NCBI GenBank assembly: GCA_021205695.1
Contig: JAJPXB010000027.1
Location: 46,444 to 96,506 of the forward strand
Reading direction: 5' to 3'
DNA: 50,063 bases
From: Clostridiales bacterium
GTDB lineage: Bacteria; Bacillota; Clostridia; Oscillospirales; Oscillospiraceae
The stretch's first letter is position 1. Every line of letters starts with the position of its first letter. The notes beneath the pieces are model-generated. The model saw nothing but the letters and a program-made list of their open reading frames with translations, was not told where the DNA came from and ran no database searches. The translations under genes and the position numbers were made by a program. Below are positions 40,101 to 42,822 of this stretch, one piece after another.

Positions 40101-40877
40101 CTACGAGATGTTCTTCCGTATCTGACCGATGGCGCTTTTTTCCAGACGGGAGACCTGGGCCTGGGAGATGCCCACCTCGGCGGAGACCTCCATCTGGGTT
40201 TTCCCCTGGTAGAACCGCAGCTCCAGGATATGCCGCTCCCGCTCCGGGAGACGTTCCATGGCGTCCCGGAGGGCGAGATGCTCCAGCCAGCGCTCGTCGT
40301 TGTTCTTCTCGTCCTTCACCTGATCCATAACGCACACTGTGTCTCCGCCGTCGGAGTAGATGGGCTCATACAGGCTCACCGGGTCAGAGATGGCGTCCAT
40401 GGCAAAGACCACGTCCTCCCGTTTCAGCTCCAGGAGCCTGGCAATCTCATCCAGAGACGGTTCCCGCTGGTGCTCCCGGGTAAACTCCTCCCGGGTCTGG
40501 AGCACCCGATAGGCCATATCCCGCATGGAGCGGCTGACCCGAAGGGCGGAGGAGTCCCGGAGGAACCGCCGCACCTCTCCCAGGATCAGCGGGACGCCAT
40601 AGGTGGAAAACTTCACCTCGAACTGGTCGCAGTCGAACCGGTCTACCGCCTTCACCAGGCCGATGCAGCCCACCTGAAAGAGGTCGTCCATATTCTCCCC
40701 CCGCCCGGCGAACCGCTGGATGACGGAGAGGACCAGCCGGAGATTGCCCTCGATCATCTCCTGCCGTGCCTGCTGGTCCCCCCGCTTGACCCGGCGGAGC
40801 AGCTCGGTCATCTCCTCGCTCTTTAGCACCTTCAGCTTGGACGTATTCACGCCGCAGATCTCTACCTTGCCGTTCAT
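40101..40877 (-). CDS. sigG: Sporulation sigma factor G
   Basis: Sigma-G directs late forespore transcription. The 258-residue product starts MNGKVEICGVNTSKLKVL, the distinctive SigG N-terminus. It has sigma region 2 (NLRLVLSVIQRF, DLFQVGCIGLVKAVDRFD, FSTYGVPLILGEVRRFLRD), region 3, and region 4 with LPERERHILELRFYQGKTQMEVSAEVGISQAQVSRLEKSA. ATG start with GGGAGG 8 bases upstream; this SD lies in a hairpin and a sigma-F-type promoter overlaps its other arm. It is downstream of spoIIGA-sigE in the same direction, as in Bacillus. Confidence 0.96.
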   Translation of the reverse strand: MNGKVEICGVNTSKLKVLKSEEMTELLRRVKRGDQQARQEMIEGNLRLVLSVIQRFAGRGENMDDLFQVGCIGLVKAVDRFDCDQFEVKFSTYGVPLILGEVRRFLRDSSALRVSRSMRDMAYRVLQTREEFTREHQREPSLDEIARLLELKREDVVFAMDAISDPVSLYEPIYSDGGDTVCVMDQVKDEKNNDERWLEHLALRDAMERLPERERHILELRFYQGKTQMEVSAEVGISQAQVSRLEKSAIGQIRKNIS

Positions 40878-40880
40878 ACG

Positions 40881-40926
40881 AAAAACCTCCCGTGATACTG
40901 TGTTCAGTATCTCCAGAGGAGGTTTT
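40881..40926 (-). promoter_or_regulatory. SD-sequestering hairpin in the sigG leader
   Basis: On the minus strand AAAAACCTCC (40926-40917) pairs exactly with GGAGGTTTTT (40890-40881), and inside it GATACTG (40911-40905) pairs with CAGTATC (40900-40894) around a 4-base loop. The 3' arm is the sigG SD. The 5' arm lies inside the sigma-F-type promoter spacer, so RNA started there would not contain it. Confidence 0.75.
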
Positions 40927-40934
40927 TCCTATGC
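40905..40934 (-). promoter_or_regulatory. Sigma-F-type promoter of sigG
   Basis: Minus strand GCATA (40934-40930), a 15-base spacer, GGAGATACTG (40914-40905). This matches the sigma-F consensus GYATA-N15-GGNNANAHTR at every fixed position. The expected start site is near 40898, about 20 bases before the ATG. Confidence 0.8.
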
Positions 40935-40989
40935 GGGAGAGAATGGGCGGGAAACGTCCCTTCCGGTCAGATGCGGGGAGTTTGGGCGA

Positions 40990-41709
40990 CTATCCCTCCA
41001 TCTGCACGATATCCTTGCGCAGCCGGGCGATGATGCGTTTTTCCAGGCGGGAGATGTAGGACTGGGAGATGCCCATCTGATCCGCTACCTCCTTTTGGGT
41101 GCAGGTACGACGGCCGCCCAGGCCAAAGCGCATATTGATGATGGTTCGCTCCCGCTCCCCAAGCCTGTTCAGGGCCTGCCGCAGCAGCTGGCGGTCCACG
41201 TCGTCCTCCATGGGGCGGATGACCAGGTCGCCATCCGTCCCCAGCACATCGGAGAGGAGCAGCTCGTTGCCGTCCCAGTCGGTGTTCAGCGGCTCGTCAA
41301 AGGAGATCTCCCCCTTCTGGTTGGCAGTCTTTCGCAGATACATGAGGATTTCATTCTCGATGCACCGGGATGCGTAGGTAGCCAGCTTGATGTTCTTTTC
41401 CGTGTTGAAGGTACTCACCGCCTTCACCAAGCCGATGGTCCCGATGGAGATCAGGTCCTCCAAATTGATGCCTGTGTTCTCAAATCGGCGGGCCAGATAG
41501 ACCACCAGCCGCAGATTGTGCTCGATAAGGGTGGCCCTTGCCTGCTGGTCTCCGTCCCGGACTTTCAGGAGCAGCGTCCGCTCCTGCTCCCGATCCAGCG
41601 GCGGGGGCAGCACATCGCTCCCACCGATATAGTGCAGCCCTTCGCACGGGCAAATCACCCATACGAACCGCTGCCATCCCAGCTCCAGCCATTTTCCAAG
41701 TTCCGTCAT
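40990..41709 (-). CDS. sigE: Sporulation sigma factor E (pro-sigma-E)
   Basis: Sigma-E runs early mother-cell gene expression. The 239-residue product carries an N-terminal pro-segment of about 30 residues with a hydrophobic patch ([10 protein letters not shown]) that SpoIIGA should remove. Then come region 2 ([64 protein letters not shown]) and region 4 ([43 protein letters not shown]). I chose the ATG at 41709 (GGAGGAGAG before it); the longer frame upstream is not SigE-like. The gap after spoIIGA is 100 bases. Confidence 0.96.
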
Positions 41710-41809: not shown

Positions 41810-42658
41810 CTAGATTCCAATGATCCCCTGATAGCTTCCATCGGCAAACGGCTCCGGGGTCAGAGCCACCAGTTGACGCTCCACCCTCCTTCCGTCCAGG
41901 GTGGCGCTGTCCACCCGGACGGCCAGAAGCAGCCCGGAGCGCACCCCCACTCCCCGATAGGGCAGCAGGTGGAGCCGGCCGGCGCCCCAGGCCGAGCCAA
42001 TGCGTTGAAGGCCGTCCACCGGGTCGGCCACGTCCTCCCGCCTCAGCTCCGGCTCTCCGGGCAGCAGAGGCCGCACCGTCTCCCAGGAGGTCACCAGCAC
42101 CGATCCGGACCCTGCGGGATCGGTGAGCAGGTTTCCCGTATCCCCCAGCGCGGTCAGCCAGATGTACCGCTCGCCCCAGGACAGCCGCACCGGCAGGAGC
42201 CGTCTCCCCCGCTCCGGGGCCAGCCGTCGGAGCACGGTGCAGCACAGCCAGTAGCACACCGCTCCCGCCAGCAGCAGGGCCTTCCAGTCCGGGCCGCTGA
42301 CCGGGATGCCGTTGGGATAGGCCAGCCCTGCGGGCCAGAGAAAGGCCACCAGCAGCAGCACCCCCGCCAACGCACAAGACAGCGCCAGCAGCAGGAGGAA
42401 CAGCCGCAGCCATCCTCTCCGCCGCCCAAAGGCCGCCACCGTCATCACCGCCCCCCACAACACCCGGCAAATCGGCAGGGCAAGCCATTCCAGTCCGGGG
42501 AGGAACACCAGCACCGCATATGCCCCGCCCAGCGCGCCTCCGGCCAGCAGCCGCAGGCGCCGAAAGGGGGCGGCGGCCAATCCGGCCACAGAGCGCAGGA
42601 GCAAGTAGTCCAATACTCCGTTGAGCAGAAAAACGGTGTCCACATAGATGACGGTCAT
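41810..42658 (-). CDS. spoIIGA: Sigma-E processing peptidase SpoIIGA
   Basis: SpoIIGA is a septal membrane aspartic peptidase that cuts pro-sigma-E in the mother cell after a signal from the forespore. The 282-residue product starts [21 protein letters not shown] and has about five membrane helices (residues 1-145). A soluble C-terminal domain holds the catalytic motif DTGNLLTDP near residue 185. The start has GGAGGGG upstream. The gene order spoIIGA-sigE-sigG is conserved. A promoter with an unusually long spacer lies at 42704-42736. Confidence 0.93.
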
Positions 42659-42703
42659 GGCATCCCCTCCGGCGGTCGGACAAGGCGGTTTGTCCCGCTG
42701 ACA

Positions 42704-42736
42704 AGTATATCCCTGTCGGGCAGAAAAACCGGTCAA
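42704..42736 (-). promoter_or_regulatory. spoIIG-type promoter with 21-base spacer
   Basis: Minus strand TTGACC (42736-42731), 21 bases, TATACT (42709-42704). The B. subtilis spoIIG promoter is a sigma-A promoter with an abnormally long spacer (22) activated by Spo0A (family knowledge). TGTCGGG at 42714-42720 on the plus strand resembles a Spo0A box (TGTCGAA) at 5 of 7 positions. Confidence 0.6.
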
Positions 42737-42778
42737 AGCCGGGATGGGGGAACGGGGCGTTTTGGCCGGGGAGAGCGC

Positions 42779-42822
42779 AAAACGCCCCCGTCCTCCCATT
42801 TTCCGGGAGAACGGGGGCGCGA
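42779..42822 (-). terminator. Terminator of the glycosyltransferase gene
   Basis: Minus strand GCGCCCCCGT with TCTCCCG pairs with GGGAG and ACGGGGGCG, then TTTTGC. It starts about 12 bases after the stop at 42834. Confidence 0.75.

Follow-up and report, generated by a model that had tools for sequence, protein, structure and literature searches.

The window, by which we mean the whole stretch of 50,063 nucleotides that was analysed, carries spoIIGA, sigE and sigG in this order on its minus strand, and a promoter of the sigma-F/G type, GCATA-N15-GGAGATACT (40934-40906), is sited between sigE and sigG on the same strand. SigG scored 419.8 bits against the NCBIfam model NF006071, above the cut-off of 372, and 407.1 against TIGR02850, which is under the cut-off of 457. 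The start of sigE at 41709 was picked from its SD, while the open frame extends to 41847, and the true start of spoIIGA may be internal to the interval given for it. In the direction of transcription, the features are:

41810..42799, minus strand: spoIIGA, the upstream gene of the presumed read-through unit (TIGR02854, 2.1e-30, under its cut-off)
40990..41709, minus strand: sigE (NF006158, 5e-112, and TIGR02835, both above their cut-offs)
40930..40934, minus strand: -35 element GCATA of the sigma-F/G-type promoter, read from the sequence
40915..40929, minus strand: promoter spacer of 15 nt that houses the anti-SD arm, from the sequence
40918..40927, minus strand: 5′ arm AAAAACCTCC, complement of the SD region, from sequence and fold (spacer-shuffle p about 0.005)
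40906..40914, minus strand: -10 element GGAGATACT, from the sequence, followed by a G at 40905
40894..40911, minus strand: inner stem GATACTG-AACA-CAGTATC, from the fold (GATACTG 40911-40905, CAGTATC 40900-40894)
about 40897, minus strand: putative transcription start, to within a few nt, by analogy with Bacillus subtilis, whose RBS is placed at +19 to +23 in PMC5942855
40881..40890, minus strand: 3′ arm GGAGGTTTTT including the SD (GGAGG 40886-40890), from sequence and fold
40101..40877, minus strand: sigG, sporulation sigma factor G (ATG 40877-40875; NF006071, 4.3e-126)

The original prediction placed an anti-SD arm inside the sigG promoter, and this geometry of promoter, arm and SD was confirmed from the minus-strand sequence. 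AAAAACCTCC (40927-40918) is the exact complement of GGAGGTTTTT (40890-40881), giving a perfect 10 bp, and by sequence and fold the 5′ strand of the inner stem, GATACTG, overlaps the -10 element. The start site must be downstream of the -10 and therefore downstream of the 5′ arm too. No Rfam match was obtained for positions 40700-41100 up to an E-value of 0.1, which ruled out a known RNA family or riboswitch as the identity of the element. Among the titled records, the closest SigG loci come mostly from metagenome-assembled Clostridiales and Oscillospiraceae. SigG is also encoded, with up to 70% identity, in unannotated “Bacteriophage sp.” records from human faeces (MT83xxxx), which probably represent host DNA or phage-carried sporulation genes. 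Of 150 genomes from the window's family, 37 gave no SigG match at an E-value of 1e-80; some of these 37 are close to complete, including one from the window's genus, which suggests repeated loss of sporulation. Four SigG frames (G184, G350, G459 and G565) are each flagged with one in-frame stop, which may reflect a frame edge, an error or a broken gene.

The 10 perfect pairs plus an inner 7-pair stem that had been described for RNA read through from spoIIGA-sigE were recovered by folding: the 81-nt read-through RNA reaches -33.5 kcal/mol, its shuffles averaged -16.5 (z -5.84), and none of the 200 was as stable. Truncation at 40906 leaves an RNA of -3.1 kcal/mol, a value matched by 173 of 200 shuffles, and RNA begun at about 40897, a B. 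subtilis-like start, likewise gives -3.1 kcal/mol. Folding both RNAs was the check proposed with the original prediction, and the contrast is strong (-33.5 versus -3.1 kcal/mol). The accompanying claim that promoter-started RNA leaves the SD free stands in so far as this RNA has no stable fold and is more open than the read-through RNA (mean unpaired 0.45 versus 0.11 over the initiation region), but at 0.45 the SD is about half open and the RNA is not fully unfolded. The arm-SD duplex itself is far stronger than its shuffled counterparts, at -23.0 versus -10.9 when only the spacer was shuffled (p about 0.005) and at -23.4 versus -9.1 when spacer and -10 were shuffled together (p 0.001).

For the comparison with relatives, SigG loci were drawn from the window's family, order, class and phylum, together with four named records of a plasmid collection. 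The 304 SigG loci yielded 302 leaders, since L099 and L131 had no usable start; 17 of the 302 were dropped for a promoter score below 18 or for the lack of an SD 8 nt or more downstream, and removal of 57 near-duplicates from the remaining 285 left 228 sigG leaders. The permutation set was built from the first 258 leaders, of which 244 were usable and 192 remained without near-duplicates. Groups correspond to the labels of the search tool, with the 46 genome-contig leaders treated as one further group and the named records as a separate one, although some of these belong to the window's family or elsewhere. A sigma-F/G-type promoter with a score of at least 18 was present in 246/258 sigG leaders compared with 1.9% of shuffles, and among the 254 leaders scoring at least 16 the promoter spacer measured 15 nt in 168, 14 nt in 82 and 16 nt in 4.

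The arm sequences vary between species, and their complementarity is often retained. When the spacer and -10 of each of the 192 leaders were paired with their own SD region, the mean duplex energy was -13.42, versus -9.80 (sd 0.19) with permuted partners and -10.40 for the best of 2000 permutations; the own-partner advantage is thus 3.6 kcal/mol, or about 19 permutation sd. The spacer of a leader beat its own shuffles at p<=0.05 in 87/228 sigG leaders and at p<=0.01 in 56/228. Counted as one leader per family group, 35.8/109 beat their shuffles where 5.5 were expected, and the mean own-minus-shuffled energy was negative in 84/109 family groups. Shuffle-beating leaders make up 33/76 of the window's family together with the genome-contig relatives, 18/42 of the rest of the order and 36/107 beyond the order, including 14/54 in other classes. 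The arrangement in which the SD is closed in the read-through RNA and open in the promoter RNA was predicted for 86/228 leaders and its reverse for 1, and the mean SD pairing probability was 0.59 with real spacers, 0.46 with swapped spacers and 0.40 with shuffled ones. This pairing excess in the sigG leaders is coordinated variation of the two arms. It is not universal, as 141/228 sigG leaders fail to beat shuffled spacers at p<=0.05. Nine sequences, 8 of them distinct, represent the nearest relatives, and among them pairing holds in 92.5% of cells versus 40-58% with the partners slid; across the 8 distinct rows only one pair has changed on both sides, and one pair is seen as T-G, T-A and C-G. 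A classical covariation count on these nearest relatives was set aside because the divergence among 8 distinct rows is too low. The co-variation of arms that the original prediction had looked to in relatives is therefore borne out by permutation and by shuffling across the leaders, but within the nearest relatives it comes down to that single two-sided change.

The original prediction also named read-through from spoIIGA-sigE as the cause. These genes do sit upstream of sigG in the window, but the claim proved too narrow: among the 199 leaders with at least 500 nt of upstream sequence, a SigE C-terminus lies within 700 nt upstream in 79 and is absent in 120. Because of these 120 leaders, spoIIGA-sigE read-through is not the general reason for the pairing, and three loci with 83-86% SigG identity (L034, L035 and L038) keep the arrangement without sigE. 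The orientation of upstream genes was called with a positional-frequency gene caller, which replaced a weak caller based on amino-acid composition; it called the upstream gene co-directional in 77/79 sigE-adjacent loci and miscalled L003. The mean own-minus-shuffled energy was -4.65 for the 85 leaders behind sigE and -5.53 for the 28 whose upstream gene is co-directional, is not sigE and ends within 250 nt; it was -3.17 where the co-directional gene is further off (n=10) and -2.78 beside a divergent neighbour (n=47, of which 17 rank at <=0.05). The excess of co-directional over divergent loci is a modest contrast, with p 0.010 on energy and 0.24 on SD pairing; for other co-directional genes versus divergent ones, the values are 0.007 and 0.08, respectively.

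Directly behind sigE, 33/85 sigG leaders have a duplex weaker than -10. Conversely, strong duplexes occur in 15 leaders called divergent, and the divergent gene is backed by a Pfam match in 13 of these 15; within this set the match of L023 lies only at 659 nt, L003 is the miscalled locus and L077 has no match. Such arrangements beside divergent neighbours, where no guard should be needed, count against the reading of the hairpin as a lock on read-through RNA. A pure sigE read-through explanation was dropped, as the pairing persists away from sigE, and guarding against any transcript begun elsewhere than at this promoter fits better than sigE read-through alone. In several Oscillibacter-like loci (within L002-L140), a divergent PRC-barrel gene of the YlmC/YmxH type adjoins sigG. 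In other loci (among them L149, L154, L163, L164, L166-L168, L223, L256 and L297), sigE is directly upstream and the spacer-SD duplex is weak, which makes these lineages candidates for making sigma-G independently of sigma-F.

The nested arm is not confined to sigG. In the window's own genome (2.24 Mb), the pattern GNATR-N15-GGNRATACT has three sites versus one for the backward pattern, and the three sites lie at sigG, at a CBS-domain gene and at an M23-peptidase gene resembling spoIIQ. At 3/3 of them the spacer contains a complement of the SD region, with shuffle p values of 0.001 (sigG), 0.0005 (CBS) and 0.0065 (M23). A second promoter pattern gave 5 sites in the own genome, equal to its backward control, and none of the 3/5 that were examined had such an arrangement. 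The CBS-domain gene (L306, on C31 of the own genome) is found behind an HtrA-like gene, the M23/spoIIQ-like gene (L307, on C62) has a HAD phosphatase gene upstream, and the own copy of spoIIR (L328, on C23) stands behind ispE with a borderline lock. The energies of the read-through and promoter RNAs in the own genome are -37.1 and -3.1 for sigG, -42.3 and -5.2 for CBS, -34.3 and -5.8 for M23, and -32.4 and -12.1 for spoIIR.

The device was also scored at spoIIR, the gene for the protein that brings the forespore signal for sigma-E activation. The scoring for spoIIR was devised after the pattern had been spotted by eye and allowed a GTTTA -35; the same settings were applied to gpr, M23 and spoIVA. 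For these other genes a promoter score of at least 15.5 was demanded and strands were taken from the search tables, which kept 29/30 rows for spoIIR in the family, 22/30 for gpr, 28/30 for M23, and 23/30 plus 37/40 for spoIIR in the class. In the window's family 22-23/29 spoIIR leaders beat their shuffles at 0.05 in two runs (mean -19.6 versus about -9), with the own copy of the window genome borderline (p 0.053-0.065). In the wider class, 6-7 of the 22-23 best-scoring loci did so, and 13-14/37 when taken one per family. The M23 relatives gave 10-11/28. The comparison genes are low but not zero: gpr, with the same promoter type, gave 2/22, and the sigma-E control gene spoIVA gave 6/27 when 27 of 30 rows were scored at the best promoter-like site without a minimum score, and 1/7 with the minimum.

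Neighbours of spoIIR were also called. There are 22 locked loci, and in the 20 where a neighbour could be called it is co-directional in 20/20. Of the 7 unlocked loci, 5 are co-directional and 2 divergent, the neighbour being an amino-acid transporter in L340 and a gene without family match in L336. The co-directional unlocked loci include the window genome's borderline copy (L328); in L320 and L331 the palindrome is visible by eye but the scoring settled on a different promoter site, and neither explanation applies to L324 or L334. The upstream co-directional gene was ispE in 3/5 spoIIR loci checked (the own genome included), with no family match for the other two. In 17/29 spoIIR leaders TTTT occurs within the 14 nt that precede the start, and therefore termination may act there beside, or in place of, SD hiding. 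spoIIR is called sigma-F-dependent in PMC3738446.

We regard a lock on expression that depends on the start site, of the kind known from phage T4 gene e, as the best reading of these data and as quite likely, and for sigG the lock mechanism is probably right. The promoter spacer would encode an RNA arm complementary to the sigG SD region; a polymerase arriving from upstream, here from spoIIGA-sigE, would transcribe both arms, and we infer that the hairpin then shuts over the SD of the read-through RNA, so that no sigma-G would be made from it. RNA from the promoter itself would lack the 5′ arm and keep a more open SD. The claim that only sigma-F-started RNA is translatable is apt where it means promoter-started RNA, but this promoter may be used by sigma-F or, later, by sigma-G. 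Copies that have a T-run may use the hairpin as a terminator as well, and the same device may guard other forespore-type genes behind unrelated genes, namely spoIIR, M23/spoIIQ-like and CBS-domain genes.

Termination could also be the main business of the hairpin, with upstream transcripts ended by an intrinsic terminator, the cover of the SD incidental and promoter RNA escaping for want of the 5′ arm. The 3′ arm does end in a T-run in the window (TTTTT), as do many of the spoIIR leaders already counted, but TTTT within 8 nt after the SD core is found in only 24/119 sigG leaders whose SD is predicted to be paired (5/73 of the others), and a simple scan that admitted loops of 3-8 only called no terminator on the minus strand there. 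A main function as terminator was set aside for sigG, since the T-run is mostly absent from sigG leaders, and we hold this explanation to be unlikely overall. It is much less probable still that the element is a DNA inverted repeat bound by a regulator, such as a repressor of sigG, with RNA pairing as a by-product. In its favour, the inner repeat forms a perfect dyad of 7 bp that spans the -10 and the start region, and PMC3738446 describes SpoVT as an inhibitor of sigG transcription in B. subtilis; a protein site would, however, keep its sequence, whereas here the arm sequences diverge widely across species with complementarity kept, and a spoIIR relative (L337) has a long palindrome of unrelated sequence.

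Chance and composition deserve the same weighing, as a C/T-rich spacer would pair with whatever G-rich SD it meets, and an excess could arise from motifs that are common to promoters and SDs. Shuffled and swapped spacers indeed reach much of the SD pairing of real ones (0.40 and 0.46 versus 0.59), and spoIVA is not free of hits; but own partners beat permuted ones by about 19 permutation sd, the count over family groups is several times the expected 5.5, and gpr promoters of the same type stay at 2/22, so that we consider this account very improbable.

With the expression lock as the preferred reading, the co-variation of the arms across about a hundred family groups points to selection on pairing, and unwanted transcripts into sigG thus probably matter. 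We give an even chance to a wider rule of insulation shared by endospore formers, in which a forespore gene lying behind a unit that belongs to a different cell type or time would have, within its sigma-F/G promoter, one arm of a hairpin that covers the SD or terminates the RNA. If this rule is true, cell-type specificity would be enforced twice, by the promoter and by the 5′ end of the RNA, and loss of the lock should accompany sigma-F-independent synthesis, which may be compared with the sigF mutant of Clostridioides difficile (PMC3738446). The lock would offer a simple explanation of how genes expressed in different cell types can be direct neighbours, its recurrence at spoIIR suggests a general way to make genes respond to the position of the RNA start, and a promoter that silences read-through could serve as a compact engineering part. 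What deserves following up is the wider pattern at forespore-type genes.

The lock idea for sigG has already been proposed in B. subtilis, and the original prediction was right to recall such a proposal: PMC5942855 credits Masuda (1988) with a hairpin of 20 or more pairs that was predicted to block translation of spoIIG read-through RNA and that cannot form in PsigG RNA. What is new here is the comparison, i.e. the kept pairing and the recurrence at other genes; a limited, largely open-access full-text search found no account of widely conserved pairing, nor of locks at spoIIR, M23 or CBS genes. The window shares with the Masuda hairpin of spoIIIG, as described there, the same gene behind spoIIGA-sigE (with SpoIIGA below cut-off here) and an SD paired with an arm upstream of the start, so that the arm is missing from promoter RNA; it differs in having a perfect 10-bp arm and a separate inner stem. 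Read-through sigG RNA is reported not to be translated in B. subtilis (Jones et al., 2008, PMC2530871), and the spoIIG read-through RNA is reported not to be required for sigG expression (Mearls et al., 2018, PMC5942855). The same study relates misexpressed sigG to sigma-G activity in growing cells, with spurious transcription as one possible cause.

In Bacillus velezensis (L261), the C-rich arm is also found inside the promoter spacer, with a spacer of 14 nt and GTG as start codon where the window has 15 nt and ATG. The L261 record (NZ_CP083716.1, 807 kb) is labelled a plasmid and carries spoIIGA-sigE-sigG, and is therefore probably a piece of chromosome. The RBS hairpin that Mearls et al. 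(2018) describe in B. subtilis also covers the sigG SD, with a 2-4 fold effect on a reporter, and its strengthening led to very low expression of the sigG reporter (PMC5942855). It consists of five pairs inside promoter-started RNA and is presented as damping early and late expression, whereas the window element is absent from promoter-started RNA; no hairpin of the Mearls type was found in the promoter RNA of the window, whose -3.1 kcal/mol is no better than shuffles. Among clostridia, a spoIIGA-sigE-sigG transcript is reported for Clostridium acetobutylicum (Jones et al., 2008, PMC2530871), and both promoters are reported in C. difficile (PMC7438776, PMC3789822). A PsigG fusion in C. difficile is described as silent in a sigF mutant (PMC3789829), and sigma-G protein as detected in such a mutant, unlike in C. 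perfringens and C. acetobutylicum (PMC3738446).

Start-dependent SD hiding is an established principle in phage T4, at gene e and at I-TevI (PMC3014915). According to this source, the long early RNAs of T4 gene e, soc, 49 and I-TevI hide the SD or the start codon in a helix, with a 100-fold drop in translation of the long RNA for gene e, whose late promoters lie inside the stretch encoding the 5′ strand, so that late RNA is translated. Unlike the window, T4 uses a phage late sigma factor and not a cell-type-specific sporulation sigma, and no descent is claimed. As in gene e, the window promoter is nested in the 5′ part of the inhibitory structure, with the arm in its spacer and the inner stem over its -10.
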